From a virus, in IMG/VR virus record IMGVR_UViG_3300044675_003089, positions 1-21,036 of that record: DNA of 21,036 nucleotides; one strand, given 5' to 3'. The position numbers and the translations under genes were made by a program. The notes beneath the pieces are model-generated. The model made no database searches. It saw only the letters and a list, made by a program, of their open reading frames with translations, and was not told the DNA's origin. Below, piece by piece: positions 1,029 through 20,500 of this stretch. How positions within the stretch are numbered: the stretch's first letter is position 1; each line of letters opens with the position of its first letter.

Positions 1029-2609
1029 ATGTGGCCATTTTTACCTCAAAACCCATGTGGGTGTAGTTCTAATGAATCAACAACAAATGTTGGATCAGAT
1101 AATATAAGATATGCAGGTCCTGTATTAGCTTGTACAGGAATTGAACCTTGTGACACTCTTACCACTGCACTTCAAAAAATTGATAATGTAGTTTGTGGTA
1201 TACTTGATACACTAGACGTGTGTTGTACAACTACCACTTCTACAACTACAATATGCCCTTGTACTACGTATGGATATGTTGGACCAAGATTTAATCCTGG
1301 TACAATTACATACGTACAATGTAATACATTAGAACCAATTACAGATACTGCATCTAGCACTGTACAATTTGCTTGTGTTGACAATAACTATCCAATTATA
1401 GAAATTGGTTCAATTAATGTTATAGATACACAAGATTGTTGTTCAAATATTACAACTACTACTACAACTTCTGTTCCAGTAAACCCATTCTGTTATGAAG
1501 TAACAGTTACAGGTAAATGTACTGTTTATTGGACTGATGCTAATGGTGATCCTCAGTCAGAACAAGTTACAAATAATGTAATAAACATTTGTGCTGATGA
1601 AGATTCTATTGCAAGTAGCTGTGGTGGTGGTGCAGGTATTTCTATATCTGGAGGAACTGTTGCTTGTACAAATGATGCAATTTGTCAACCTACAACTACT
1701 ACCACTACAACAATAGCTTGTAACTGTGTTACATTTACCAATACAGATGGCACTGTAACAGATCATACCATTTCATATAATGACTGTCTTGGAGAGTTTG
1801 TTGAAACTACAATTTCTGCAAGTGAGGTGTTACAATTTTGTGGATGCTGTGGTGCATCAGATAGTGAGTTAGTAATAGTAACAACTGGAGGAGCTTGTAT
1901 TGATGAAGTGTGTCCTACTACAACAACTACAACTACATTAGCATGTGTATCTTATTTATTACAAAGTACAGGTACTGGTGGAAGAGGTAATGAATGGGAG
2001 GCATTTGCTTGTAATTCAAACATTGCAGTAGGAGGTACTATTCCTTTTCCTGGAACAATGGAAACTGGATGTATTACAGAAGGTTCATTATTACTTGGTG
2101 CTAGCTTAGAGGTTGTTTCTCAAACACCTTGTCAAGGAGTTAGTTGTGAGGCATTTGATATACAAGGATTATCTCCTGTAGGATCTTGGGATGCAATTGA
2201 TTGTTCTGGAAATAGAGTTGGTGCAGTTGCTCCTAGTGGCGATACTGTTCCTACAGGATGTATTATTCCTCAAACATTGCTTTTAGATAATGCATATATA
2301 AAAACAGATCTTGGACCATGTGGTTCTACAACTTCTACAACTTCTACAACAACAACAGTTGCTCCTGGAAGTTTTAAATATTTTTTCTCTGATGCTGCAA
2401 TTTCAGGAACGTTAGCATGTGCAAAAATAACTTTCCCAGTAACATTATATTCAGATGATACTACTCTTAACCTAGGATCTACTTTATATACAGACTTAGC
2501 ATTAACTATTCCTTTTGCAGGAGCTGCAAGATGGTATCAAGAATCTGTAAATAATATTTCTTATGCTATTCTTAATAATGGAGAAATTGCTGGTGAATTC
2601 ACTTGTTAA
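1029..2609 (+). CDS. Multidomain poly-threonine-linked virion adhesin
   Basis: 526 aa, starting 4 nt after the fibre stop (ATG after TAATCTT, no Shine-Dalgarno). Residues about 28-66 carry the helical pattern shared with its neighbours (CTGIEP, then DTLTTALQKIDNVVCGILDTL). After it come small, Cys-containing, beta-rich modules separated by Thr tracts at 1227-1250, 1452-1469, 1692-1712, 1917-1937 and 2325-2357. Modules by nt: about 1254-1448 (A), 1482-1688 (B), 1716-1913 (C), 1941-2135 (D), 2142-2321 (E) and 2361-2606 (F). A and C look related to each other; D and E are a tandem pair (both with W-x-A-x-x-C, TGCI and LLL); B has a near copy in the gene at 11925. No catalytic motif, signal peptide or membrane segment is seen. 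The most plausible role is an exposed adhesin or fibre-associated decoration recognising host surface; this is inferred from architecture and position, since the modules match no family I can name. Confidence 0.7.
   Translation: MWPFLPQNPCGCSSNESTTNVGSDNIRYAGPVLACTGIEPCDTLTTALQKIDNVVCGILDTLDVCCTTTTSTTTICPCTTYGYVGPRFNPGTITYVQCNTLEPITDTASSTVQFACVDNNYPIIEIGSINVIDTQDCCSNITTTTTTSVPVNPFCYEVTVTGKCTVYWTDANGDPQSEQVTNNVINICADEDSIASSCGGGAGISISGGTVACTNDAICQPTTTTTTTIACNCVTFTNTDGTVTDHTISYNDCLGEFVETTISASEVLQFCGCCGASDSELVIVTTGGACIDEVCPTTTTTTTLACVSYLLQSTGTGGRGNEWEAFACNSNIAVGGTIPFPGTMETGCITEGSLLLGASLEVVSQTPCQGVSCEAFDIQGLSPVGSWDAIDCSGNRVGAVAPSGDTVPTGCIIPQTLLLDNAYIKTDLGPCGSTTSTTSTTTTVAPGSFKYFFSDAAISGTLACAKITFPVTLYSDDTTLNLGSTLYTDLALTIPFAGAARWYQESVNNISYAILNNGEIAGEFTC
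1227..2357 (+). repeat. Five Thr-codon tracts in the adhesin gene
   Basis: Five separate tracts at 1227-1250, 1452-1469, 1692-1712, 1917-1937 and 2325-2357 encode runs of six or seven Thr, or Thr with single Ser. ACA and ACT are mixed with some ACC, so they are imperfect trinucleotide repeats that keep the reading frame whatever their length. Each sits between two Cys-containing modules, as a linker would. Confidence 0.9.
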
Positions 2610-2625
2610 TATTAAAGCTAAAATT

Positions 2626-2907
2626 ATGAGTATTCTTAATTGTATAAACACTGATTCTTGTTCAACACAGATTACTAAATCTGATTTAGTAACATATCTT
2701 GGACTAGATTTACTATGTACAAATATTCAAACGTCAGAAGATCTCACTGAAGCTCTTACAAAAATAGATGAACGTCTTTGTAGTATAATAGATACTTTAG
2801 GTATTTGTTGTACTACAACTACGACATCAACCAGTACTTCTACTACAACAACCACAACTGAGTGTCCTTGTCCAACAACAACGACAACAACAACTTTACT
2901 TTTATGA
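2626..2907 (+). CDS. Short helical-motif protein with poly-Thr tail
   Basis: 93 aa starting at ATG 2626 (AAAATTATG); in-frame ATGs at 2563 and 2578 lie inside the preceding gene and would duplicate its 3' end, so they are rejected. Residues about 22-62 hold the same pattern as the two upstream proteins: a hydrophobic YLGLDLLC, then EDLTEALTKIDERLCSIIDTL and GICC. The remainder is almost only threonine and serine with a CPCP break (Thr-rich at 2812-2859 and 2875-2895), ending LLL. The TGA stop overlaps the next ATG as ATGA. In effect this is the N-terminal anchor plus linker found in the larger adhesin, without a fused head module, while the next ORF is a head module without an anchor. The two may work as a coupled pair or be a split version of one fibre. 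Function unknown. Confidence 0.65.
   Translation: MSILNCINTDSCSTQITKSDLVTYLGLDLLCTNIQTSEDLTEALTKIDERLCSIIDTLGICCTTTTTSTSTSTTTTTTECPCPTTTTTTTLLL
2812..2895 (+). repeat. Thr/Ser-codon tracts at the end of the short anchor gene
   Basis: Sixteen codons of Thr with a few Ser (2812-2859), a short Cys/Pro break, then seven Thr codons (2875-2895) immediately before the stop. ACA, ACT, ACC, ACG, TCA, TCT and AGT are all used, so the amino acid composition rather than the nucleotide repeat looks selected. Confidence 0.9.
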
Positions 2908-3386
2908 CAGCACTTATAACATTAACTACAGCAGGTGCAGATACAGGTCCATTTAATCTATATTCAGATTTAGATGGATACATAACACCTTTTGAAATAG
3001 GAGTGAGTAAAGCAGCTTTGCTTGCAGGATATTCAACTTCATTGATTCCAGATTTTACAACAACTGTAAGAATACTATCAACTAGTACTTATTGTATAAA
3101 CTCTGTTGATATACCAGTGCTTCCACCACTTGACTTTGTATTAACAAGTAGTTGTGCTGGAATAAATGCAACACTTAGTATGACTACATACACTGGAGGG
3201 TCAGGGTCTTATGAATCAGGGAATGGTTTCTTTTTAAGTGAAGCAGCTGCATTAGCTAATACATCTTGGATTCCTGGAACATCTTTTGCAATAGGAATAG
3301 GATCTACACCAGGAACTTATTGGATGGTAATTAAAGACACATTAGGAAATTTAAAAGCTAAAGACATAGCTGTAAATTGTCCATAA
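2904..3386 (+). CDS. Two-module beta-rich virion protein
   Basis: 160 aa from ATG 2904, overlapping the previous stop by four bases (ATGA), which suggests translational coupling. The frame is open back to a GTG at 2862, but the ATG gives a sensible N-terminus. Residues 1 to about 70 form a module (ITLTTAGADTGPF, then SKAALLAGYST, then a strand ending in Cys) that is clearly related to the N-terminus of the protein at 13654. Residues about 75-160 form a second beta domain with TYTGGSGSYESGNGFF, AAALANTSW and GTYWMVIKDTLGN, ending in Cys-Pro; its layout resembles Ig-like or SprB-type repeats of Bacteroidota surface proteins, though I cannot confirm that by eye. It is the last gene before a terminator. 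Likely an exposed tail or fibre component; exact role unknown. Confidence 0.65.
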   Translation: MTALITLTTAGADTGPFNLYSDLDGYITPFEIGVSKAALLAGYSTSLIPDFTTTVRILSTSTYCINSVDIPVLPPLDFVLTSSCAGINATLSMTTYTGGSGSYESGNGFFLSEAAALANTSWIPGTSFAIGIGSTPGTYWMVIKDTLGNLKAKDIAVNCP

Positions 3387-3508: not shown

Positions 3509-3537
3509 TAAACTATGAAAACAATTATATATCTTTA
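3506..3537 (+). promoter_or_regulatory. Bacteroidota-type promoter for the connector/tail operon
   Basis: TTG at 3506-3508, a 21-nt spacer and TATCTTTA at 3530-3537 fit the TTTG / TAnnTTTG pattern of the primary sigma factor of Bacteroidota, with the last base of the second box not matching. The first gene starts at 3564, leaving a leader of roughly 20 nt. It sits directly after the terminator, where a promoter is expected. No experimental start site is known. Confidence 0.55.
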
Positions 3538-3563
3538 CCTTGTTTTAACCAATATGAACGCAT

Positions 3564-4772
3564 ATGCTTGATAATCAACAATTACTAAACCAGTTGAAGG
3601 ATATGCTTCGCTGGAAAAAAAGCAAAAGTTATTATGCAAAGTCCTTAGGAATTTCTGTATTTGAAGTGGATCGACTTCTTAAACAGTTAAATGAGGACAA
3701 AAGAGTTGAACCATCATCAAACAAAACAATCAAAGTTGATCTTGAAAAGGGAGTGTTAGAAAGCACAATCATATGTGACTATGAACCCAAAGATGATATT
3801 GAACTTGCAGCATTACACAAGATAGATCTTGAGAAATATATAATTACAAACTACTGGTCTAAACTTTTACCAAATGGCAAATTTACATCTTCAGTTTTTT
3901 CTAAACGAAGAGGACCAAAAGATTACAACCCTGAAGACTTTGCCAAGTTTTTAGAAAACTACAAACCAAACAACATTGCAATTGATCCTGTTGATCACAG
4001 CAAAGAGAAAGATTATGTGGACATTGAGATATCAATCTCTGATTACCACTTAGCTAAGAAGCATGTTGATGAAGATAATAACCCTGTTGAAAGAGCATAC
4101 AGATACTTTAATGTGGCTCAATCTTTGATTAAGAAAGTTGCATCTGTATATAACATAAACACTGTGGTGTTTCCTATTTCGAATGACTTTTTCCATACAG
4201 ATAATTACCATAACCAAACTACACAAGGAACTCCACAAGACACTATATTAGATTATAGTTCTGAATACGAGTTAGGATTCTCGATACTTGTAGATACGAT
4301 AAACATGCTGAGATTCTATTCAAGTAGTGTTGATGTTATACTTGTTCAAGGAAATCATGATAGAACTAAATCTTTCTATTTAGCACATGCATTAGAAGTA
4401 TATTTCAAACGTGAATTTGATGTTAAGTTTGATAGAGAACATAGTGTTGTAAAAGGTAAGACGTTAGGAGATACATTCATTGGATGGCATCATGGTAACT
4501 GTAAAGTGGAGGATCTCCCACTATTGTTTGCAACACATCCTGAGCATAGTAAAGCATTTGGTGATGCTAAATACAGAGAGGTGCACACAGGAGATAAACA
4601 TCACTATATGGCTAAAGAAGTCAAAGGTGTAAGAATACAACAAATGCCTAGTCTGTCTGGAACAGATAGATGGCACTTAGATAACAATTATGTACATAGT
4701 GTACGAGCAGCACTTGTTTTAGTTTATGATAAACATAAAGGAAAGATTGCTGAATTTGAAGAAAGAATTTAA
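3564..4772 (+). CDS. Metallophosphoesterase with N-terminal HTH-like segment
   Basis: 402 aa. The calcineurin-like metallophosphoesterase motifs appear in order: D160-Y-H162 (metal site 1, in SISDYHLAKKH), N207-D208 with H211 and D213 in ISNDFFHTDN (where the family usually has GDxxD), G263-N264-H265-D266-R (the signature GNHD), H309-H310 in GWHHGN, and T342-G-D-K-H346-H347 (the usual GHxH position). Residues about 14-45 (YYAKSLGISVFEVDRLLKQL) look like a helix-turn-helix, so the enzyme may bind DNA. Family members hydrolyse phosphodiesters or phosphomonoesters with two metal ions; in a virion-gene operon a DNA end- or genome-processing role is possible, but the substrate is unknown. The start ATG at 3564 is the first in frame after the promoter; the ATG at 3553 opens a five-codon frame only. 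It heads the operon and is followed after 2 nt by the next gene. Confidence 0.85.
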   Translation: MLDNQQLLNQLKDMLRWKKSKSYYAKSLGISVFEVDRLLKQLNEDKRVEPSSNKTIKVDLEKGVLESTIICDYEPKDDIELAALHKIDLEKYIITNYWSKLLPNGKFTSSVFSKRRGPKDYNPEDFAKFLENYKPNNIAIDPVDHSKEKDYVDIEISISDYHLAKKHVDEDNNPVERAYRYFNVAQSLIKKVASVYNINTVVFPISNDFFHTDNYHNQTTQGTPQDTILDYSSEYELGFSILVDTINMLRFYSSSVDVILVQGNHDRTKSFYLAHALEVYFKREFDVKFDREHSVVKGKTLGDTFIGWHHGNCKVEDLPLLFATHPEHSKAFGDAKYREVHTGDKHHYMAKEVKGVRIQQMPSLSGTDRWHLDNNYVHSVRAALVLVYDKHKGKIAEFEERI

Positions 4773-6973: not shown

Positions 6974-9900
6974 ATGGCAGATAATACACAAGATCCATCA
7001 GAACAAGGAGGAATTAGACAAGAGTATAATGTTGCTACTACAGGTTTAAATTTAGATCAATCTCTTAATCAGATTCCTAAAGGTAAATTAACATATGCAT
7101 TAAATGCTGCTGTTGAAAACTTTGATGCGAATTCTGTAAACTATCAAAATGAACCAGGGAATGAACTTTGTATTAATTTTCCTACAGAGTTTGTATTGAT
7201 TGGAACGCACTTTATCCAAGAAAAAAATAAACATATATTCTTTATTACAAATCCTGGAACAGGTGATTCAGAAATTGGATATATGGACAACAATGATTGT
7301 CAGTATAAAACATTAGTTTCTGGAAAGTGTTTAAATTTTAAAATTGATTATCCTATTCATAAAGTTGTACACAAGATTACAAATTGTGCCACTGAAATTT
7401 ATTGGACAGATGGATTCAATGATAGAAGATATTTAAACATTGATGATATTCCATATGAAATAAAATCTGGATCAATTATTTGTGATCCAGTTTATACAGA
7501 TGTATTAGATTGTAATCAGATAAAAGTTCAACCTAACTTTAGTATTCCTGAAATAGAAATAACTAATGTTGTATCAGGAGGTAGTCTTATATCAGGTACA
7601 TACCAGTTTGCTGTACAATATTGTGATGCAGCAGGAAATGCTTATACATCATATTATTCAGTTACAAATCCTTTACCAATTGCAGACATTTATATCACTA
7701 CTCCTAATTTTAATTATGAAGTAGGGAAGTCTATTAGAATGAATGTTAGCAATCTTGATTTAACAGGGCAGTTCCAATACTTTAACATTGCTGTAATAAA
7801 AACCATTAATAATATCCCATCAGTAGAACTGATAGGTATTTATTTTATTGAATCATCTACAAAAGATGTTACATACACAGGTCAGAATACTACAGATATA
7901 AAATTAACAATAGCTGATATATTTCAGAAGTATCCTTATTATGATATTGCACAAGATCTTACAGTTGTGCAAGACATTCTTGTATGGGATCAATTGACTA
8001 CAATTGATAGAATTAATTATCAGCAGATTGCAAATAATATTGAACTTCAGTGGGAGACATATAAAATTCCTGCTAATGAAAATTATGCTGATGAATTAAA
8101 TGCTTTAAATTTACGTGGGTATCTACGTGATGAAATATATGCATTTGAGATTGTGTTCTTATTGAAGAATGGAAAACAAACAGATGGTTTCCATATTCCT
8201 GGAAGAAAGATATCTGCTTATGATTTATCGTTTCCAGATGTTCCTGATACAAATCCTGATTTTGTTGGAGAGCCAGAATATTATGATGTATATGGTGTTG
8301 GATATAGTCCATGGTGGAAAGTTTACAATACAGGTAGAGCTTTAGGATTTTCAAATAATCCTGAGATCAACAATGCTACAGCATATCAGTTTGGAGAATT
8401 TGCTTATTGGGAATCCTTAGAACAATATCCATGTAACGTGGATGTATGGGGAGAACTTGCTGGTCAAAATATTAGACATCACAAATTTCCTGATGTTCTT
8501 GTAAGTCCCATATTTGAAGATGCAGTAAATTCATTAGGTGGAAGTTCTACCCAAATGCAAAACTGTGCTGTATTTCCAATTGGTGTAAGAATTGATGTAT
8601 CACAATTGTTTAGTTCAATAAATTTATCAAATCTTACAAATGAGCAAAAAGCTGACATTGTAGGATTTAAGATTGTAAGAGGAGATAGAACTACAAACAA
8701 ATCTATTATTGGTAAGGGTATTCTTAGAAACGTAAATAAATATGAAAGAGATGATCAAACATATTTCTTTCCTAATTACCCATACAATGATCTTAGTGGA
8801 GATCCTTTTATAAATCAAATAAACAATGCATATTCTCAAATATGCGAACCATGGTTAATTATCTGTACTGATAATGGTGAATTCCAATATACAGACTGTA
8901 ATAGAAATAAACCAAAAAGAGCATCAATGGTAACTGGTCAAATCTATGAGGTTTGTTCAACAACAAAACCTACACATTTAACTGGTGCTGCTGAAATAGG
9001 TCCTGGTAATTATGACATGTGGCTTGCTACAGGTTGTGCTGGTACAACAGGATATGATATACAATATTCCACACCTTTCACTACAGACAATACAGCTATC
9101 AAAGCAGTGTCAGAATATTTAAATGGTGCAGGAATTGGTGGTTGGGGATCATGTGATACAGTTTATAGAAAATTGGAATTAGATGGACAAATGGGTGACA
9201 CTTGTGGTGGAACATTTGATTCATGTACTTCTCGATACTATAAACTTGAAAGAGTTGAACAAGATCCAGGTGTGATGCTACCTGATAAAGGAAGAATCTC
9301 TAAATTAAATTGTAGAGCTGAAACTCCATTAGAAGCAATAAGAAACATAACAGATATTGGATATAGACAAATATTTAATTCTCCTGAGACATCTTTTGGA
9401 CAACCTTTCTTAGGTAACGTTCTTAAGTTAGAGAATGTGATATTTGGTAATGGAATTGCTCACTTTACTGAGGTTAGAAATAATGCAAAATATAAACTTC
9501 TATCAGAAGAAGCTCAGAGAGATGCTTTGAAAAGTTCTGAGGATATAGCTAACTATACAAATGCATTCAATGCATCTGCAATGTTTGCTGCATACCAATC
9601 ATACCTAACTATTTATGTAAATGGTATTACAAGAAAGAACTATGCATACTCATTTAATTCTATAGCTAGTTATGATAATTTTGCAAACATTGATAATGGT
9701 ATACAAGTTAAGCAACGTAAAATAGATCGTAAACAATACCTTATCCCAGGAGTACAATCTGTAGGAGATGAGTACAATATTAATAACTATAATAGAGAGT
9801 CGTCTGTATTTATAAGAACAACAGGGTTAGAAGATGATGAGCCTCAATATAGTGCGTTGCCTTTCCCTGATCAAACTCCAAGTTTATTATCTGGAGGAAC

Positions 9901-11890
9901 AAGTATTGTTAAAGATTATTCTAGATTTACAATTGGTAGTACAAATAATTGTGCTACTCCTGGATTAGATCAACCTATAACAGTTGTATCATATTATGCT
10001 TCTATGAAGAACATAATAGATAATCAATGGGGACAAATATATTCCTATGATACAATTGATACAGGATTCCAATTCATGTTTAATGAAACTGCGTCAGGAC
10101 CTGTTCCATTCTTTGGAGGTGATACGTTCATTTCTAGATTTGCATTCAAAACAAAACTTCCATACTTTATTGATAACAGAGTGGGAGCTCCTGATGATTC
10201 AGACATCTTCTATGACGAGATTGGTAATGTAGGTTATCCTAAATACTGGCACTCAGCACGTTCTATATTAGAGAACTATGCTCTTAGAAATGGAACAGTT
10301 CTTTCAAATTTCATTTCATATAAGGCGCACAATTTTGATTGTCCTAATAATCCTGCAACTATTGCAGTTACAAATACTGGATCTTCAAGTTATAGAACTT
10401 TCTATGATGGATACTTCTACTTGTTTGCATATGGGGTTCCAAACTTCTATTGTGAGAGTACATATAACGTAGACTTGCGTCAAGCATTTGATAATAAGGC
10501 TGGTGATTTCTGGCCACATGTTAATACAAGTATTCCTGATGATTGGGTACAAGAAAGCTATGTATCAATTGCAAATGATAATACATATACATATAACGTA
10601 ACCTTCTCTAAACAAAATAGAGAAAATACATTTACACACTTACCTCCTGATTGGGAAGGTCAATTGTGTTATACACATTATCCATTTAGAGGTATATATT
10701 CAGAACCTCAAGTAAACAATGCTGATAATAGAGTAAATAACTGGTTGACGTATTTACCATTATCATTATATGATTTTCCACAGAATTATGGAAAACTTAT
10801 ATCATTAGATGGTATTCAGAATAAAGCTGTACTTGCTAGATTTGAGAATAAGTCATTGTTGTACAACAACTTGTTAACTATTAATACAAGTAATCCTCAA
10901 GCTGCATACGTAGGTAATCCTAAGTTATTTGAAGGTGCACCTCCTATTGATTTTGCTGAAACAGATCTTGGATATGTAGGAAGTCAGAATAAGTTCTTGT
11001 TGAAAATTCCACAAGGACAAATCACTGTTGACGCTAAACGTGGACAAGTATTCCTTATATCTGGAACACAAGCTGTAGATCTTTCTGCATTTGGTTCAGG
11101 TGTGAACAGATTCTTTACAGACCACTTAGCATTTGAGATTCTTAGATATTTCCCTGAAGTAGATACAGATAATCACTTTAATGCTATTGGTTTACATGGA
11201 GTGTATGATTCTAAATTTGATAGAGTTATTCTTACGAAACTTGATTACATTCCACTAGATCCTGATATCAAATATGACCCTGTTACTAAAGAGTTTTATA
11301 TTGAGACAGTTGATTACATGAATGGTCCAACTACCACATCAACAACATCGTCAAGTTCAACAACTACTACATCAACATCTTCTACAACCACCACTACTAC
11401 AACATTGGTTTGTAACTCTTATAGATATGCAATTGATTTGTACACATGTGCAAATTGTACAAGTTTTGGTGCAGGAGAAATGTACAATGCTGTACCTTTA
11501 ATAGTTGGAGGTTGGTATATTTACCAAGGATATAAAGTACAAGTGACAGCATTTTTATTCTGTAGTCAAGGTGGTACATTAGTTGACATTGAACCTACAT
11601 ATCAACCTAGTTGCATAGGATTAACTTGCCCTACGACAACAACAACAACCACAACAATATTTGATAATTATCAAATTCAGGATTGTATAACTTCAAATGT
11701 TTACACATTATCTAAAACATATATATTTTCTTTAGGAGATGTAGTTCAGTATCAAATTGGTGTTCCAGGAGCAGGATTACAAAGATGTGGAGTAATTATA
11801 AGTACTACAACCAATTTAGCACCAACAGCATCTCTTTTTTCAGCTAATGACTATTCTTGTGGTGATACTGTACATTGCCCTTCAAGTTAA
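6974..11890 (+). CDS. Tail stabilisation (muzzle) protein, first part, with poly-Thr cassettes at its end
   Basis: 1638 aa, starting 5 nt after the tail tubular gene (AATTATG). The N-terminus (GLNLDQSLNQIPKGKLTYAL, ANSVNYQNEPGNE, ITNCATEIYWTDGFNDRRYLNID) is the characteristic opening of the large P22 gp10-like stabilisation or muzzle protein of crAss-like phages, which forms the distal end of the short tail. Recognisable muzzle sequence continues to about residue 1451 (FDRVILTKLDYIPL, then YDPVTKEFYI). There the expected sequence stops: a Thr/Ser tract (11330-11404, residues 1453-1477), a Cys-rich module (about 1478-1551), eight Thr (11633-11656) and a last module to the stop follow. The continuation of the muzzle sequence appears in the next two genes. 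The extra modules probably hang off the tail tip and may contact the host. The muzzle assignment is strong; the cassette function is unknown. Confidence 0.85.
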   Translation: MADNTQDPSEQGGIRQEYNVATTGLNLDQSLNQIPKGKLTYALNAAVENFDANSVNYQNEPGNELCINFPTEFVLIGTHFIQEKNKHIFFITNPGTGDSEIGYMDNNDCQYKTLVSGKCLNFKIDYPIHKVVHKITNCATEIYWTDGFNDRRYLNIDDIPYEIKSGSIICDPVYTDVLDCNQIKVQPNFSIPEIEITNVVSGGSLISGTYQFAVQYCDAAGNAYTSYYSVTNPLPIADIYITTPNFNYEVGKSIRMNVSNLDLTGQFQYFNIAVIKTINNIPSVELIGIYFIESSTKDVTYTGQNTTDIKLTIADIFQKYPYYDIAQDLTVVQDILVWDQLTTIDRINYQQIANNIELQWETYKIPANENYADELNALNLRGYLRDEIYAFEIVFLLKNGKQTDGFHIPGRKISAYDLSFPDVPDTNPDFVGEPEYYDVYGVGYSPWWKVYNTGRALGFSNNPEINNATAYQFGEFAYWESLEQYPCNVDVWGELAGQNIRHHKFPDVLVSPIFEDAVNSLGGSSTQMQNCAVFPIGVRIDVSQLFSSINLSNLTNEQKADIVGFKIVRGDRTTNKSIIGKGILRNVNKYERDDQTYFFPNYPYNDLSGDPFINQINNAYSQICEPWLIICTDNGEFQYTDCNRNKPKRASMVTGQIYEVCSTTKPTHLTGAAEIGPGNYDMWLATGCAGTTGYDIQYSTPFTTDNTAIKAVSEYLNGAGIGGWGSCDTVYRKLELDGQMGDTCGGTFDSCTSRYYKLERVEQDPGVMLPDKGRISKLNCRAETPLEAIRNITDIGYRQIFNSPETSFGQPFLGNVLKLENVIFGNGIAHFTEVRNNAKYKLLSEEAQRDALKSSEDIANYTNAFNASAMFAAYQSYLTIYVNGITRKNYAYSFNSIASYDNFANIDNGIQVKQRKIDRKQYLIPGVQSVGDEYNINNYNRESSVFIRTTGLEDDEPQYSALPFPDQTPSLLSGGTSIVKDYSRFTIGSTNNCATPGLDQPITVVSYYASMKNIIDNQWGQIYSYDTIDTGFQFMFNETASGPVPFFGGDTFISRFAFKTKLPYFIDNRVGAPDDSDIFYDEIGNVGYPKYWHSARSILENYALRNGTVLSNFISYKAHNFDCPNNPATIAVTNTGSSSYRTFYDGYFYLFAYGVPNFYCESTYNVDLRQAFDNKAGDFWPHVNTSIPDDWVQESYVSIANDNTYTYNVTFSKQNRENTFTHLPPDWEGQLCYTHYPFRGIYSEPQVNNADNRVNNWLTYLPLSLYDFPQNYGKLISLDGIQNKAVLARFENKSLLYNNLLTINTSNPQAAYVGNPKLFEGAPPIDFAETDLGYVGSQNKFLLKIPQGQITVDAKRGQVFLISGTQAVDLSAFGSGVNRFFTDHLAFEILRYFPEVDTDNHFNAIGLHGVYDSKFDRVILTKLDYIPLDPDIKYDPVTKEFYIETVDYMNGPTTTSTTSSSSTTTTSTSSTTTTTTTLVCNSYRYAIDLYTCANCTSFGAGEMYNAVPLIVGGWYIYQGYKVQVTAFLFCSQGGTLVDIEPTYQPSCIGLTCPTTTTTTTTIFDNYQIQDCITSNVYTLSKTYIFSLGDVVQYQIGVPGAGLQRCGVIISTTTNLAPTASLFSANDYSCGDTVHCPSS
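11330..11404 (+). repeat. Thr/Ser-codon linker at the first muzzle break
   Basis: Twenty-five codons of Thr and Ser only, mixing ACA, ACT, ACC, TCA, TCT, TCG and AGT. It begins right where recognisable muzzle sequence ends and leads to a small Cys-containing module. A second, all-Thr linker of eight codons is at 11633-11656. Confidence 0.9.
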
Positions 11891-11924
11891 TTTAAATCAA
11901 TCAATGCCATTATAATTGTATAAT

Positions 11925-13649
11925 ATGGAAGATAATACAATACCAGTAGTAACAAGAACACAAGTTTATCTTACAGATCCTGAATTCTTCTGTAATAAAT
12001 CTTGGACCTTATCATTTAATTTCAACACTAAATCTTGGATAAGCTTCCATAGCTATATCCCTAATTTCTATATAGGAGAAAACAATTTCTTCTATTCAGG
12101 ACTTAACAATTGTTGTTCAGATGTTGAGGGTCAATTTACAGCATTAGTTGGTAATCCAGATAAACCTGTTACAACCACAACAACTACTACTGGACCAATT
12201 CCACCAACCACAACAACTACAACAGCTACTCCAATAGATTGTACAATAGAAGGAGTTATTCTTTTAACATACTGTGAATTAGAGGGAGATGCAATAATTA
12301 CAGTTCCTCCAACTACAACTACAACAATTTGTCAAAGACCATTTGGTTTAAATGTATATCAATTAGTACAGGGCTATCAAGTAGGAACAGATCCAGCAGT
12401 AGTATCTTCTGGAAGTTTATCAGATGCATGTTCAGCAATATCTACTGTGCGATCACTTGATCCATTGATAAGTGTGGATTGGTTTCCAGGAGTTGCAAAC
12501 AGTTTAGATGTTTTAGAAATTGTTTATTATGGAGCTAATACTGATTGTACATTTGTTCCAGATGGATGGTACTTTACTCAAGAAGGAATGGTCAAAGGAT
12601 TTGTTTATCAAATCTTTAATGGATATGTTCGTAGTATTGGATATTGTGATTGTGGAACTACAGATAAAGAAACTACACTTCCACCTAACATTGATGAATG
12701 TTGTGGAATATTTACTAGTTCAGGAGATGAGATTACTTACTATAATAACTCTGCAGTGAATACATTAATTGTTCCAGGATATACATCAGCATTAGGTACT
12801 GCAATAACATCCACTAAATTTTGGTCTATTAATACAGATATACAAGAGTGGGATATAACAACTACTCCTTTCACTGCTGTATACAATAGAGCTATAGCTT
12901 TCCCTGGAGGATTTACAACATCATCAGGAATTGTAGCAATTGACAATACAACATTAATTACAATAGATGATTCTGTCTCTCCTCAAGATGTAGTAGAAAT
13001 GGACATCACTACAACTACAGGAGTTCCAACTGTAATGTTTAGTTTACAAGCTAATAGAGTTGCAATAGGAAATATGTTATATACAACTGGAGATAAACTT
13101 CTTGTGATTAATCAAGATTCAGTTACCTTTGACTATTTTATCACTCAGTATGAATATTCTACAGGAACTTTAGAAACTGATGTAAATATTGGAACAGTTT
13201 CTGCAGTTGGTTTGTTTGAATGTGATTGTGTTATTTATGTAGTTGATGAGTTTGAAAATACATACGTGATTAGTAAAACATCTCCTTATGAATTAATTGC
13301 ACATGCTCCATTAGGAATAGTTGGAACATTGTTTACGCAAATAGGAACATGTGTACCAACTTCAATTACAGAAAATGCAAACTTGACAACTACAACTACA
13401 ACAACATTTGTTCCTAATACATACTGTCATACAGTGAGAGTAAATGGTTCATGTTCGTTGAGTTGGATAGATCATTCAGGAACTGTACAATTTCAAACTG
13501 TAACTAATGATGCAATATACATTTGTGCTCAACTATATTCTATAACACAAAGTTGCACCAGTGGTTCATCAATTTCAATTAGTGGTGGAGTAGATTCTTG
13601 TACAGATGACTTACAATGTACAACTACAACCACAACTACAATTCCTTAA
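11925..13649 (+). CDS. Muzzle protein, second part, carrying poly-Thr modules and a propeller-like domain
   Basis: 574 aa from ATG 11925 (MEDNTIPVV); a TTG three codons upstream is less likely. Residues about 10-70 (VYLTDPEFFCNKSWTLSFN, SWISFHSYIPNFYIGENNFF) are a segment that normally lies inside the muzzle protein, after the part ending in the previous gene. Thr tracts follow at 12171-12191, 12207-12224, 12312-12326, 13386-13406 and 13620-13640. Between them are a short Cys module, a module of about 110 aa with a PDGWYF strand, and a region of about 220 aa (residues 259-481, nt 12699-13368) of repeated short strands (KFWSINTDIQEWDITTTPF, GIVAIDNTTLITID, VVEMDITTTTGVP, LLVINQDS, YVVDEFENTYVIS) that reads like a beta-propeller. 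Then comes the 69-aa module duplicated from the gene at 1029. Probably a tail-tip subunit that displays receptor-binding modules; this is inferred. Confidence 0.7.
   Translation: MEDNTIPVVTRTQVYLTDPEFFCNKSWTLSFNFNTKSWISFHSYIPNFYIGENNFFYSGLNNCCSDVEGQFTALVGNPDKPVTTTTTTTGPIPPTTTTTTATPIDCTIEGVILLTYCELEGDAIITVPPTTTTTICQRPFGLNVYQLVQGYQVGTDPAVVSSGSLSDACSAISTVRSLDPLISVDWFPGVANSLDVLEIVYYGANTDCTFVPDGWYFTQEGMVKGFVYQIFNGYVRSIGYCDCGTTDKETTLPPNIDECCGIFTSSGDEITYYNNSAVNTLIVPGYTSALGTAITSTKFWSINTDIQEWDITTTPFTAVYNRAIAFPGGFTTSSGIVAIDNTTLITIDDSVSPQDVVEMDITTTTGVPTVMFSLQANRVAIGNMLYTTGDKLLVINQDSVTFDYFITQYEYSTGTLETDVNIGTVSAVGLFECDCVIYVVDEFENTYVISKTSPYELIAHAPLGIVGTLFTQIGTCVPTSITENANLTTTTTTTFVPNTYCHTVRVNGSCSLSWIDHSGTVQFQTVTNDAIYICAQLYSITQSCTSGSSISISGGVDSCTDDLQCTTTTTTTIP
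12171..12224 (+). repeat. Two Thr-codon tracts at the second muzzle break
   Basis: Seven Thr codons (12171-12191), a Gly-Pro-rich spacer, then six Thr codons (12207-12224). They follow directly on the last recognisable muzzle segment of this ORF. ACA, ACC and ACT are mixed. Confidence 0.9.
13413..13619 (+). repeat. 69-codon module duplicated from 1482-1688
   Basis: This module and nt 1482-1688 are both exactly 207 nt between Thr tracts and align without gaps at an offset of one residue, with about 32 identities in 68 by hand count. Shared features include G-x-C-x-x-x-W-x-D, VTN-x-x-I-x-ICA, SI-x-x-SC, ISISGG and a final CT-x-D-x-x-C. The next Thr tract follows immediately in both genes. Confidence 0.85.
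13620..13640 (+). repeat. Seven-Thr tract at the end of the second muzzle part
   Basis: Seven Thr codons, then Ile-Pro and a TAA stop. The next ATG follows after 4 nt, in a different frame. The same layout (Thr tract, stop, new ATG starting a TGPF-type module) occurs at 2875-2904. Confidence 0.9.
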
Positions 13650-13653
13650 AATT

Positions 13654-14520
13654 ATGCCAAAGACAGTAGTAATAAAATTAACAAAAGCTGGACCTTACTC
13701 TGGTCCATTTAGCATCACCACTGAATATGGTGATGTTGTTGCTACAAATGTTTCTAAGAAAAAATTAATATTTGGAACTAGTTATGTTGTTGACAATAAT
13801 GTAAAAATATTAATCATTGAATCTTTAGGTAAATGTAAAATCAAGAAGATGTTTTCTTTAGAATCATTTACTATTATTGATTACGCTCAAGCAGTGTACA
13901 CGCAATCTCAAACTGCTTGTCTATGGAGACATTTGACAAACGTTCAAATATATAACTACTTCTATGGAAGTATAGAACCATACATCATTGAGTATCCTTT
14001 TTCATATGAACTGAGTGATGAAATTTTACAGAATGTAAAAGACTACACCAAGGCATATGAATATCTTCCTATTCCTGATGGTGTGTTTAACGATAACGCT
14101 AAAGTTGAAACAAACGATAAATGGTTTAACAAAGCTATTCTATACAATGGACAACAGAGTACAGGAGTATTGGAACTTGTTGCAAAACCAATGAACAATT
14201 TGCAAGCTTACAACTTATATCCTATCTTTAACGCTGATAGCAAAACTATTACGTATACTAAGAGTGATAACTTCTATCAATATAATACATTCTGGGCATT
14301 GCAGAAAAGTTCTCAAATTCCATTGTTTAATACATCTTGTCAAAGTCTTTCGATTGATAAGGTGATCAATCAATCTAACATGGACTATGGAACTAGATCA
14401 TTTAAGAAAGCTCCCCTTAGAGCAAAAGAACTTAAGGTGAGACACATCTTGGATAACTCTGCAACCACACATTTAGTTAGTCAATTCATAATAGCTCCTG
14501 CACAAATCTCTTACAAATAA
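13654..14520 (+). CDS. Muzzle protein, third (C-terminal) part, fused to a small N-terminal beta module
   Basis: 288 aa from ATG 13654 (AAAATTATG); an in-frame ATG at 13606 lies within the upstream gene's Thr tract and is rejected. Residues 1 to about 65 (VVIKLTKAGPYSGPFSI, VSKKKLIFGTSYVV) are a module related to the start of the protein at 2904. From about residue 80 on, the sequence is that expected near the C-terminus of crAss-like muzzle proteins: ACLWRHLTNVQIYNYFYGS, PYIIEYPF, a helix ILQNVKDYTKAY, KWFNKAILYNGQQSTGVLEL, NLQAYNLYPIFNADSKTITY and a basic end (GTRSFKKAPLRAKELKVRH). It therefore seems to complete the protein begun at 6974. How three chains assemble is unknown. The TAA stop shares its last A with the next ATG (TAATG). 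Confidence 0.7.
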   Translation: MPKTVVIKLTKAGPYSGPFSITTEYGDVVATNVSKKKLIFGTSYVVDNNVKILIIESLGKCKIKKMFSLESFTIIDYAQAVYTQSQTACLWRHLTNVQIYNYFYGSIEPYIIEYPFSYELSDEILQNVKDYTKAYEYLPIPDGVFNDNAKVETNDKWFNKAILYNGQQSTGVLELVAKPMNNLQAYNLYPIFNADSKTITYTKSDNFYQYNTFWALQKSSQIPLFNTSCQSLSIDKVINQSNMDYGTRSFKKAPLRAKELKVRHILDNSATTHLVSQFIIAPAQISYK

Positions 14521-17500
14521 TGAAAGGAAAAGTAACATGTTCAAGTTGTGGATGGTCATGGAACAAATCAGATTCTAGCCAGAAAGATATGTACATCTGT
14601 CACGAGTGTGGTAGAGACAATAGTAACAACATGAAAAATGGTGGTTGGCTAGATAATATTCCTCAAGCTCAAGATGGAGAAGTTTTATATACACCACCAA
14701 AATCACAATATAAAAGATTATATGGACATGCAAGTGAAGCTGGTATAGGTGAAAATGAAAATATGAGAATAGATCCTAATACAGGCTATTCTTATTTTCC
14801 ACAAGAAACATCTCTGAGTCAAGAAAAAGAAGTTCCCAATAGTCCATGGAATGTTTCTAGATTTTTATTTGATCCATTTATAAGAAATGTTTCTCAAGGA
14901 ATTCATAATGCAAAATACAATAACAAAGGAGAATATATAGATAGTCCAGGAGATGTTATAGAACAAGGCTACCTTACAAGTGGAATGAGTAGGAGAGAAA
15001 GATATGATGCTGCAAAAAAAGATATTACTTCTTATTATAAAGAAGATCTAAAACAAAACGATGATACTGTTGAGAAAAATGTAGATAATACAATGGATCT
15101 TGTTAGAAAAATGAGGAGAGCTGAAGAGATGATGCAAAGACAAAATGAAACCTACAAAAATTTTCAAAATCCTGAAGAAGTATTTAAAAAAGCTGTTGGA
15201 TTTTATGGTGATGATAACGAAATTAATCCTAGTGAAGCTAAAAGAGCATATAAAATGTTTCAAAAAACATGGAGAGGAACTTCAGGCAAAGAAGCAAGAC
15301 AAAATTCTAGAGAAGAATTAAAAAAAGCTAAAGAAGCATTTAAACTTTCTAAAGAACAAATGAGGAAAGGTTTGCCTAAACCTGACCCTAACTATGTTCC
15401 AGAAGATTTTGCTAATGGAGGAATATTAAAAAATGGTGGTTGGTTAGACAACTATAATGATTATGAAGTTTCTGCTCCTGAAGGATTTGAAGGAGATGGA
15501 TATAGTAACGTAGGACGTAACTATTCTCCTGCATGGGGAGGACAGTTTAAAGAAGGAGGAATAATTCCTAATGCACAAAATGGTTGGTTAGAAAAAATTG
15601 ATAATGTACTTTCTGCACCAGCAAGAGCTGCTACATATGCTGTAGAAGCAGGAGCACATGCTATAGGTGCAAGAAAAGCTCCTCCTAAATATGAAGATCC
15701 TTCTGATGGACTTGGGATAGATGAAAAAGAACATCCATATTTAAAATTGGCTACAGATATAGTTTTAGATCCTACAAACCTTTTAGGAGTAGGAGCTATT
15801 TCAAAAATAGGTAAATTAGCCAAAGGTGTAAAAACAGTACAAAAAACAAAAAATGTTTTACAACCTGCAGTCAAAACAGCATTTGATGCAGCAACAAAAG
15901 CAGGTAAAGCATCTGGAGCAATAACTTGGGGAAGAAATTTAGGTAAACAACATAAAGCTTTTTTTAAAGAATATGATGTATTACTTAAAAATTTGTATAA
16001 ACCTGAAGTTGTTGAACAAGCTTTAAAATTAGGAGCAAAAGATGCTATAGGAGCAACTGCGATTATTAATGATTTAATAAAACAACATCCAGAAAAAAAA
16101 GAAGAAATTTTAAAAAATTATAAAAATATAACTAAACAAAATACTAATAAAAACCCAAAACAAGAAGTAGTAGCAAAAGATAAAAAACCAAAAGATAAAA
16201 AACCAGAGTATACATTACAAGAAAAGTATAATTATGATCCAGGTTATAGAGCACTTAAAGAATATGTAAAAGTTTATGATACTCCTGAAGTAAAACAATT
16301 ACAAAATAATTTACATCCAGAAGGATTAGTAACTGGAAATACAGATTTATATTCTGAACTTCCTACAATAAGACCTACAGCAAAAAATGCTAAGTCTTAT
16401 AAAGTAAAAGAAACTGTACAAGGTAAGTATGCCCCATCTACAGTTGAGTATGAAGTTACAGATCCAAGAAACATTAACATGAATGATCTTGGTCCTGGTA
16501 ACACAAGAGTAGTAACTCCTGAATATCAAATGGGTGGGAATGTCTATCCAGTCAACTATGTTCCTCAAGCACAGAAAGGTAAGAAAGCAAAGAAAGTATT
16601 TAAAAAAGAATTAGAAGATGATGTAGATGATTTTTTAGGAAATCCACAAGAGAGAGCAAGGTATATGTCTGAAACAAATCCTGACGAAGCACCTAGTGAC
16701 AGTATGAGACATTCATTTGCTGGTAGATATACACAAGATGCTATTGCTAAAAAATTTGGAAATGGAGTAATAGGAAATATTGCAGGTCTTATTGGATCAA
16801 ATGCAATGGGAGCTGCTCATGAACTAAGTACATTAAGTAAAGATAAAAGAGACTGGTCTACTAAACTTAGAGAGTCTGGAGAAGACATGTTTAACAATGC
16901 TGTTGGATCTGTTATAGGAGCACTTCCTTATATGGATGAGAAAGCAAAAGATGATATGATGCGCAAGATGGTTTATGGTAATTTGCTTCCTGATGGATAT
17001 GTTTCTACACCTGAAGGAGTTAAAAAAGGATTATCTAGTAATATATATTTTAAGAACGATAGAGGACAAGTTAAAAGAAATTATGCAATGGGTGGTTCTC
17101 TTCCAGGATCTCCAGGATTTACATATGCACGTACAATTGAACCTGCTCCTGATAATGGACCTTATGCAAAGAAAACAATGGCTAGTGCACAGAATGGTAA
17201 AAATTTAAATCCTTACACCTATCCTAAACCAGATCATTACTCTAGAATGAATCCTTTTGTTTTTCAAGATCCTCAACATGGTATCTTTATAGGTGGAGTG
17301 AATCCAACCTACTCAACAAAAGATTTCTCTATAGGAGCATCTGCTGTTGGTGTAGGTAATAAAGATTTTGTAAATCCTCTTGTTGATTATGGAATAAGAG
17401 GATCATATAGTCCAATGGAGAATCTTCATTTAACTGGAAGTGTATCAAAAAATAATATTGGTGCAGGGTTAAATTATAGATTTGAAAATGGTGGAGAAAT

Positions 17501-20500
17501 GTCTTACTACCAACATGGGTTAGATTGGAAACCTAAAGGAATGGAGAATGGTGGATGGTTAGGTAAATATGAACAAGCGCAGAAAGGTGCACAGACAAGT
17601 AAATCTAAACCTGCTGTTAAGTTTGATCCTAAACAGTTTGCAAAAGATTTTAATCTTAATCTCACTCCACAACAAAGAGCACTCAAAGCATCTACAGATA
17701 AAGAAGCTCAATCTGAAGATTACAGAAGATGGGTTAGTAGTGATGAATATAAAAAAGCAGTTAAGGCACAAAAGATTGCTGAGGACAAAGCTACAATAGC
17801 ACAAAGAAAAGCTAACATAGCAAAATCAGATAAAGCTAAATTAAATCAATGGTCCACTGATGTACTTAAACCATCTAATTGGACAAGAGAAAATCTTGCT
17901 GATGCTGCTGCAGGTCTTGGTGATAAAGCTAGATTGTTTCCTGATGATCCAGATAGTTTTATTGACGAATGGTTGAATCCTGGTGTAATGATTGGAGGAA
18001 TGGCTCAGTCTCTTGGAGAAGCTCCATTACAAGCAAAAGAAACAGATTCGTATCTTCCATATGTTACAGCTATTGGTGCACCATTATTAACAGGAGCTCT
18101 TGAAGGACTTGGAGCAAATACAACTAAACAGTTTGTAAATAACTTAATCAACCCTTTTAACATTGTTCCAGGTTACAAGACTGCTGAAAAATTTGCAATG
18201 AAAAAGGCAAAAGATGTATTATTTGATGCAACAAGTTATGGAAGATTATTAAATAAAAAAATTGGAAATCAAGTTGGAATTGCTAAGAGTTTAATAAATG
18301 ATCCAAATGTAAAACTTCAGAAACCTTTATTTTTAACAAGTAAAGATGAAGTGTATCAAAACATTAACAAGGGTGCTGGTGTTTTAGAAGATCGTATTAG
18401 TAGAAAAATAATGGATCTACAATCTCCAGAAGGAATGTCAAGATTAGTAAATCAAGAAAAAGAATACCTAGAAGGTATAGGATTTACTGGAGACATATCT
18501 GAGCAAGCACTTAAGAATGCGAATGCGAGGATAGAGGAACTTGAGTACATGGAAATATTTGGTAATAAAAATAAAAACTTTGTAGAACGTTTTAAACAAG
18601 ATGATTTTGTTCCATCATACATACCTCTTATACATCCTACTCGTAAACCTACAATTAGTCAAGCAATGAAGGCTACTGATATACCAGATGTAAATGCGTA
18701 TTATCAATCACCTCCACAGTTAGAATTAACAAAAGATTTAATTGGTATAGATGTTCCTCCTTCTGCATTAAATCCTTATACTATTTCTAGTACAAGATAT
18801 TACCAACTTGGAGAAAAGCCTGCATTTGGACAACTTGCTTTAGGACAAGGCATGGCAGATGCAGCAGATACAGCAGATCATGAAATCAATCATGCTCTTC
18901 AAAGAGATAGAGTATTAAAAATAGATAATGATTTGAAAGATCTTCAAATGGATTATCAAAAAAACTTATCAGAAGATGAAATTAAAGATTATTTATATTT
19001 TGCATATGGTTCAGGAGGACAAGAATCAAGTGCATTTCTTGCAGATTTTAGAAAACAAATGTTAGATAATGGATTGATAAATCATATATATGAACCTATT
19101 TCTCCTGAAAAAGTTGCAGAAGCAGTTACTTACTTTAAACAAAACCCTAATAAAATAGTTACTGTAAAACCTACTGGACTTAGAGCACATTCAAAAGCAC
19201 GAATTGCAAATTTTGTAAGACCTAATCAAAAGAACTTTGAACTATTAAGTAAGTCATTAAATAAGTTACCAACAGTAGTTCCAGGAGCAATTGGATTAGG
19301 AGCAGCTTCCCAATTAAACAATGAAGAAGAAGTTCCTGAATATAAACAAGGAGGAATCATTAAAGATGACATGGGACAATGGGCTCATCCTGGAGAGATA
19401 ACAGAGATAGGTTCTAACAATATAACAATGCAAGGAGTTCCTTATGATGTATTAGGAATATCTGATACTGGTGATACAAAACTAATGAAACCAGGAAAGA
19501 ACTATAAGTTCAAAGGAAAGAAAGTAACAGAGTTTCCAATGGCTAAGAATGGTGTAAATCAGGTAGATGAAAAAACTTTTGAACAGTTAGATCAATTAAC
19601 TAACTTTACAAACTATAATACAAAGCAACCTGGTGGATGGTTAGATAAGTTTGCAGAGGGAGGAACCTTACCTGCAGAAGCAGCTAGTTTGCCTGCTGAG
19701 TCTTATGATATCAAAGAAGGAGATACGTTATTTGAAATTGCTCGTGACAATAATGTCCCATTAAATACATTAGCAAATGCAAACAATTTGTCTAATCCAG
19801 ATCTTATTAAAACAGGAAACAAGTTAGTAATTCCAAAACAATATAAAAAGGAATTATCATTTGCACAAATTCCTACAGCTGATAACAAGAAAGTTGTAAT
19901 AGATAACTTTAGTCCTCACTATGATTATATTGTAGAAGGAGACAAAACTTATTACAAAGTTAAAAGTGGAAAGACGTGGGCAGACATTTCTGATAATAAG
20001 AAGGCTAGAGAAAACCTAATGAGTTTCTTAGATAAGAATAATTATTGGGCAGGATATGGTAGTGGTGAGAAAGCTAAGTATGACAAAGTGCATCATCAAC
20101 CTGTTGTAGTTCCTGGAAGTAAAGTTCCAAGAACAACACCAAGCGTAATAAGAAATACTGAAACAGGTAATAAGCCTACAATTGTAAAACGACCTATTAG
20201 TAAAGTGGTCAAAGAAGAACCAGGATTCTTTAATGAGATTTCTGATATGGTATCTTCAGGAGTTAAATCCTTAGAAAATAAATGGCAAGATGTAAAAAAA
20301 GAAACTAAGAATATAGTTAAGTCTGTAGAAGATTCTGTAATATCAACTGCCAATAATGCTATTCGTACAACAGAGGATGCATATCAAACTGTAATGAATG
20401 GTGTGGAACGTAAGTATAAAACTTACACAGGAGATGATGATGATGTTAAAGTTACAACTAAAACTTCTCCAATACCTAAAACTGTAAAAGAATGGTATGG

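Follow-up and report, generated by a model that had tools for sequence, protein, structure and literature searches.

In a clade of uncultured crAss-like phages, the gene for the muzzle has likely undergone fission, with coupled reinitiation of translation at the breaks and reassembly of the resulting chains into one structure. The muzzle (or tail stabilisation protein) lies at the tail tip, counts as one of the conserved structural proteins of crAss-like phages, and is a proposed ejection gate. We analysed a stretch of 21,036 nucleotides, IMG/VR record IMGVR_UViG_3300044675_003089 (hereafter, the window), in which three consecutive ORFs correspond to an N-terminal part (N1), a short middle part (mid2), and a C-terminal part (C3) of the muzzle. 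We refer to the break between N1 and mid2 as cut A and to the break between mid2 and C3 as cut B; C3 is preceded in its chain by an additional domain, D (Table 1).

Table 1. Features of the window: parts of the split muzzle and related elements of the tail region
Feature	Position	Strand	Remarks
Homologue of the final chain 2 module	1443..1685	+	Within tail ORF 1029-2609
Tail-region ORF ending in Thr7-Leu3	2626..2907	+	TGA stop overlaps the next ATG
Tail-region accessory protein starting with D	2904..3386	+	D HMM, E 1.1e-24; paralogue of the chain 3 D
Chain 1, muzzle part N1	6974..11323	+	1450 aa, from the N-terminus up to ...YDPVTKEFYIETVDYMN
Cut A insert at the end of chain 1	11324..11890	+	188 aa; Thr/Ser linkers and Cys-containing modules; TAA at 11888
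Spacer from chain 1 stop to chain 2 ATG	11891..11924	+	34 nt
Chain 2, muzzle part mid2	11925..12158	+	About 60 conserved aa; PHROGs 15100 and 37948, mid2 HMM
Thr-linked modules at the end of chain 2	12159..13649	+	496 aa; Thr7-Ile-Pro at 13620-13646; TAA at 13647
Chain 3, D domain	13654..13881	+	76 aa at the extreme N-terminus; D HMM; ATG 4 nt past the preceding stop
Chain 3, muzzle part C3	13882..14520	+	212 aa, muzzle C-terminus; PHROG 15100 1587-1781, C3 HMM

The three ORFs (6974-11890, 11925-13649, and 13654-14520) lie in three different frames. The initial annotation described Thr tracts, Cys-containing modules, and a stop and restart in a different frame each time, and all of these are present in the ORFs as described. 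Chain 1 ends in a module (...CPSS, then the stop) and not in a Thr run; only at the second cut does a Thr run stand directly at the chain end (TTTTTTTIP, stop, 4 nt, ATG). PHROG and Pfam searches with the cut A insert of chain 1 gave no match. The spacer at cut A is just 2 nt long in a close relative (L002). In Pfam, ORF1 matches the family crAss_MUZ (PF25731) with 129.8 bits, where the cut-off is 27, and among 26 long contigs from the clade, 23 exceeded it. Upstream of the muzzle, the ORF at 5994-6968 matches CrAss_Ring_1 (PF24228; 29.3 bits, cut-off also 27). We identified 25 relatives of ORF1, and the full-length ones are 55-91% identical to it. Judging by dN/dS between the window and L002, all of the parts are under purifying selection, which is strongest on C3 (N1, ~0.12; mid2, 0.23; D, 0.26; modules, 0.25-0.27; C3, ~0.05). 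The ORF at 14481-21035 runs off the end of the contig after more than 2100 aa. Its N-terminus resembles a zinc ribbon, a LysM domain lies around residue 1740, and the product is likely a virion protein carried as cargo or associated with lysis.

That the three ORFs are successive parts of one muzzle chain, as first proposed from the sequence, agrees with the PHROG matches, with PF25731, and with our HMM comparisons. In PHROG 15100 (a virion structural protein with 1783 profile positions), the N-terminal part of ORF1 corresponds to positions 10-418, residues 22-59 of ORF2 to 1546-1583, and residues 87-286 of ORF3 to 1587-1781. PHROG 37948 is matched by both ORF1 (best stretch 1191-1744, E 1.7e-101) and ORF2 (2051-2099). 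We also built HMMs from the three parts and ran them against homologues in which the muzzle is a single chain: those of Cellulophaga phages phi4:1 and phi17:2 (2289 aa each), Flavobacterium phage FpV4 (1961 aa), Leptolyngbya phage Lbo-JY46 (1654 aa), csAssE-Sib (2257 aa), and crAss001 (gp44, 1371 aa). The parts are colinear on the intact homologues and overlap at their edges by at most a few residues, so that together they cover a single reference chain contiguously. N1, mid2, and C3 extend to 1743, over 2051-2100, and over 2100-2252 in phi4:1; to 1405, over 1407-1457, and over 1451-1654 in Lbo-JY46; and to 1994, over 2008-2061, and over 2064-2255 in csAssE-Sib. The order of the parts is the same in crAss001 gp44, with a weaker match than in the other intact homologues. 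The phi4:1 protein (gp42) is annotated as a virion protein on the basis of MS/MS. Although phi4:1 gp42, phi17:2 gp43, and FpV4 gp29 are colinear with the window, they have neither a stop and restart nor D. At site A, phi4:1 and FpV4 carry in-frame inserts of about 300-360 aa and Lbo-JY46 carries nothing; at site B, no intact homologue has an insert. Part of the site A insert of FpV4 gp29 (the stretch FDRSGS..., near 11000-11700 of L028) resembles a vWA domain. In csAssE-Sib (L032), a TnpB-family gene (3533-4756) lies directly upstream of the muzzle gene. A search with the C-terminus of the Leptolyngbya phage protein found no viral contigs.

From the 25 relatives of ORF1 and two scans of IMG/VR for C3, after removal of repeated contigs, we obtained 172 metagenomic loci that contain C3. 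In 166 of these, C3 lies in a separate ORF with D fused ahead of it. Another locus (L050) is cut by the contig end but shows a partial D, and we counted it among the 167 loci of the clade. Five loci (L195-L199), which are relatives of csAssE-Sib and were fetched with it, have an intact muzzle. Cut B is present in all 167 clade loci that hold the C-terminal segment: C3 is never in the same ORF as mid2 (0 of 167). No relative of the intact type has this cut. Thus, the split first noticed in the window is not specific to this genome as far as cut B is concerned, but cut A is only occasional (the window and 31 relatives, or 32 of 167 loci). In a quick maximum-likelihood tree of C3 (176 rows, 146 of them distinct, with long outgroup branches), the split form occupies one side of a single branch with a support of 100, and a single origin suffices to explain cut B. 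Cut A changes 12 times on the same tree, which implies that site A was opened or closed repeatedly. Because the muzzle is intact in other Crassvirales, as are the nozzles of T7-like phages, SU10, and Pa223, fission is the likely direction of change, rather than fusion. When bacterial genomes were scanned for a host, the single match was a short contig from the bin of a Tissierellales MAG. It has the same arrangement (56% identity), and we regard it as a misbinned phage contig.

Sequence and profile searches of the PDB with the muzzle parts themselves returned nothing usable. With AlphaFold2, we obtained a model of moderate confidence (mean pLDDT 54) for one of the intact relatives of csAssE-Sib (L195). 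Its C-terminal region aligns to residues 1124-1367 of the phicrAss001 muzzle (7qol_P; Foldseek E 1.2e-7, VIA Z 10.7), and that protein, gp44, has a ring-joining domain (PMC10172136). Taken together, the two halves give an rmsd of 12 A against the phicrAss001 muzzle and do not superpose rigidly. Both halves of the model also align to the nozzles of T7 (gp12), SU10, and Pa223, which are single unsplit chains and shorter (~790 aa in T7). Residues 184-346 of the model, which include mid2, match propeller folds, and C3 starts near residue 355. In this intact context, most of C3 has a pLDDT of about 60-84, as compared to 27-58 (that is, no confident fold) in an AlphaFold2 model of chain 3. The latter was made from a shallower alignment (17 versus 45 rows), which may account for part of the difference. 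These models suggest that mid2 is the last predicted blade of the propeller, that C3 holds the ring-joining domain, and that cut B falls in a low-confidence stretch after the last blade and ahead of C3. The two cuts had been taken for openings at two surface loops; the model instead puts A beside the last predicted blade and B after it, which would not be arbitrary loops. In phicrAss001, gp44 (PDB 7qok/7qol) is from the same family (PF25731) and has the upstream ring gene and the part order of the window, but it is one chain without D, whereas the window has three chains with modules on the new ends.

D is a 67-residue domain that opens the C-terminal chain and also opens accessory proteins of the tail. 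With an HMM, we found 245 copies in the first locus set and 189 in the second (some contigs are common to both). In every case checked (151/151 and 189/189), D had a Met at its N-terminus and started a chain. D had no Pfam match worth reporting and none among phage records. Between one and four accessory proteins of the tail region start with D, and some relatives (L005 and L017) have tandem D genes. The window's tail region includes a copy of the cut B layout, with poly-Thr, stop, start, and D in succession (2626-3386). In the AlphaFold2 model of chain 3, D is a confident small beta domain (pLDDT 76-92 over residues 1-80) with a predicted Ig/FnIII-like fold. The nearest folds, by VIA, are the C-terminal domains of type 9 secretion (T9SS) substrates (8gl8_D, Z 6.0; 8glk_D, Z 5.0), at scores that are within the noise for Ig/FnIII folds. 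T9SS is a system of the Bacteroidota. Unlike those C-terminal domains, D is always N-terminal. Exactly one Cys is present in 144 of 165 distinct D domains, at a position that holds Cys in 100% of the muzzle copies and 98% of the tail copies; a single conserved Cys should be free to pair with another chain. A Cys is found within the last 4 aa of the upstream chain in 78 of 163 loci, in modules that are Cys-rich in any case, and a disulfide that links D to the end of the preceding chain is only an idea.

Since D is common to tail accessory proteins, and since C3 has acquired its own new N-terminal domain, the C-terminal chain might have become a separate component of the tail that D recruits elsewhere, such as to the fibre region, the site of action of other D proteins. 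We consider this improbable: C3 is the most conserved part of the muzzle (dN/dS of ~0.05), its gene has stayed adjacent to those of the other parts, and we saw no replacement for the C-terminal part of the muzzle.

The C-terminal chain appears to be translated separately. Its start codon is ATG in 163 of 163 scored loci; the stop codon of the upstream chain is TAA in 161 of them; and the gap from stop to ATG is -1 to 14 nt in 153. As compared to internal Met codons, the sequence upstream of this ATG is A-rich at -3 and -2 and poor in G+C at -5 and -4 (for example, A at -3 in 68% versus 37%, and G+C at -5 in 10% versus 50%), which agrees with initiation in Bacteroidota and with the A-3 rule of Flavobacterium (PMC6847099). 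The retained ATG, the start-like context, the variable frame relation across cut B (0, +1, or +2 in 30, 69, and 64 loci), and the genes that intervene at some loci (see below) all support separate translation. It is very unlikely that the stops are only apparent and that the pieces are fused at the poly-Thr (ACN) repeats, whether by programmed frameshifting, by readthrough, or by bypass. In some loci, the window among them, the downstream frame extends upstream into the Thr repeat without a stop, but in many others a stop closes it only 0-2 codons from the ATG. With the three frame relations also in use, the hallmark of programmed frameshifting (a fixed frame relation with an open upstream overlap) is absent. 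The nearly invariant TAA, gaps of up to 34 nt, whole genes between the parts, and an ATG that is always retained argue in the same direction. The poly-Thr runs do not account for the split either: only 68 of 163 upstream chains have a Thr/Ser run at their end, and many others have a Cys there or close by. For the same reason, we dropped a general rule in which poly-Thr tails pair with the next D.

At about 20 loci, cut B is occupied by other genes. For example, in L012 (13583-14301), mid2 and D-C3 are separated by a GH108 endolysin gene and a small ORF, both placed inside the ancestral muzzle gene. In L173 (4482-8770), four ORFs separate the muzzle parts, and one of these has a weak trypsin-like match; in L185, the gap holds a nucleotidyltransferase gene and a Fib_succ_major protein. 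Elsewhere, additional D genes lie in the gap. These intervening genes make frameshifting, readthrough, introns, and inteins very unlikely.

The inserts themselves are Thr-linked, Cys-containing, and highly variable (189 inserts form 57 clusters at 60% coverage). Modules that could be named include concanavalin/LamG, Fib_succ_major, and beta-propeller repeats. In the window, the last module of chain 2 (13377-13619) is homologous to a module of a tail ORF (48% identity over 81 aa; blastp E 2e-8), and the window is the only contig in which a muzzle insert and a tail ORF share a module. Across the set, 15 of 189 inserts had a match in the tail once muzzle ORFs were excluded and low-complexity hits were filtered (99 before). 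The inserts would fit a role as surface-exposed adhesin modules.

Introns and inteins are plentiful in Crassvirales of other groups (PMC7886860), and a self-splicing intron or a (split) intein, removed at the RNA or protein level, would also interrupt the gene. For this clade, such an element seems most unlikely. The window has no Rfam match at the gathering score, group I and group II intron RNA included. The Thr-linked modules that make up the inserts are translated as in-frame extensions of the preceding chain. Chain 2 opens directly with mid2, which leaves no space for half of an intein; D is predicted to be Ig/FnIII-like; and the genes that occupy the gap have their own starts. Finally, the notion that the stops stem from errors of assembly or sequencing in the low-complexity ACN repeats, where misassembly could occur, or from gene decay, is scarcely credible and, as to errors, is refuted for cut B: the architecture recurs across many separate metagenomes; L002 and L003 (91% identical to the window, from other metagenomes, and unchanged in architecture), together with cut B in 167 loci, exclude chance or assembly error; a 287-aa UniProt protein of Virus NIOZ-UU157 aligns end to end with chain 3 (62% identity); and every part is under purifying selection. 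This virus has two relevant proteins, the homologue of chain 3 and a 77-aa match to D (A0A7S9SU37 and A0A7S9XFL2), both deposited as uncharacterised.

Under gene fission, the C-terminal ~210 residues (the putative ring-joining part and tail-barrel anchor) would have become a gene of their own by gaining an ATG and D. In the window and some relatives, a second cut would have freed the mid2 blade, with Thr-linked modules on its C-terminus. The close spacing of stop and start codons makes it probable that synthesis of the chains is coupled, with ribosomes that terminate and then reinitiate. The chains would then rejoin non-covalently, perhaps with disulfides, as one muzzle. Both the new termini and the intergenic gap would be open slots that accept adhesin-like modules or whole genes while the core fold stays unbroken. 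The modules may have a receptor-binding role. A bolder possibility, which we hold as doubtful, is that D is a general docking domain: six D domains would be displayed at cut B, and accessory D proteins would plug onto them or onto each other. If so, the receptor-binding outfit could be changed through insertion of D genes or through modules attached to a donated propeller blade, and splitting an essential tail protein would have made a plug-in socket.

We found no description of a split muzzle in the open-access papers that we searched, although one may exist elsewhere. The split explains why automatic annotation of these environmental phages would leave part of the muzzle unrecognised, and D is a newly defined chain-starting domain. 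The reassembly of split propellers and the use of chain ends as slots for surface modules become testable. More broadly, evolution can open a conserved complex of the tail tip and keep it open, with foreign genes such as an endolysin between its parts, which suggests that the tail tip of this clade can be re-equipped piece by piece.
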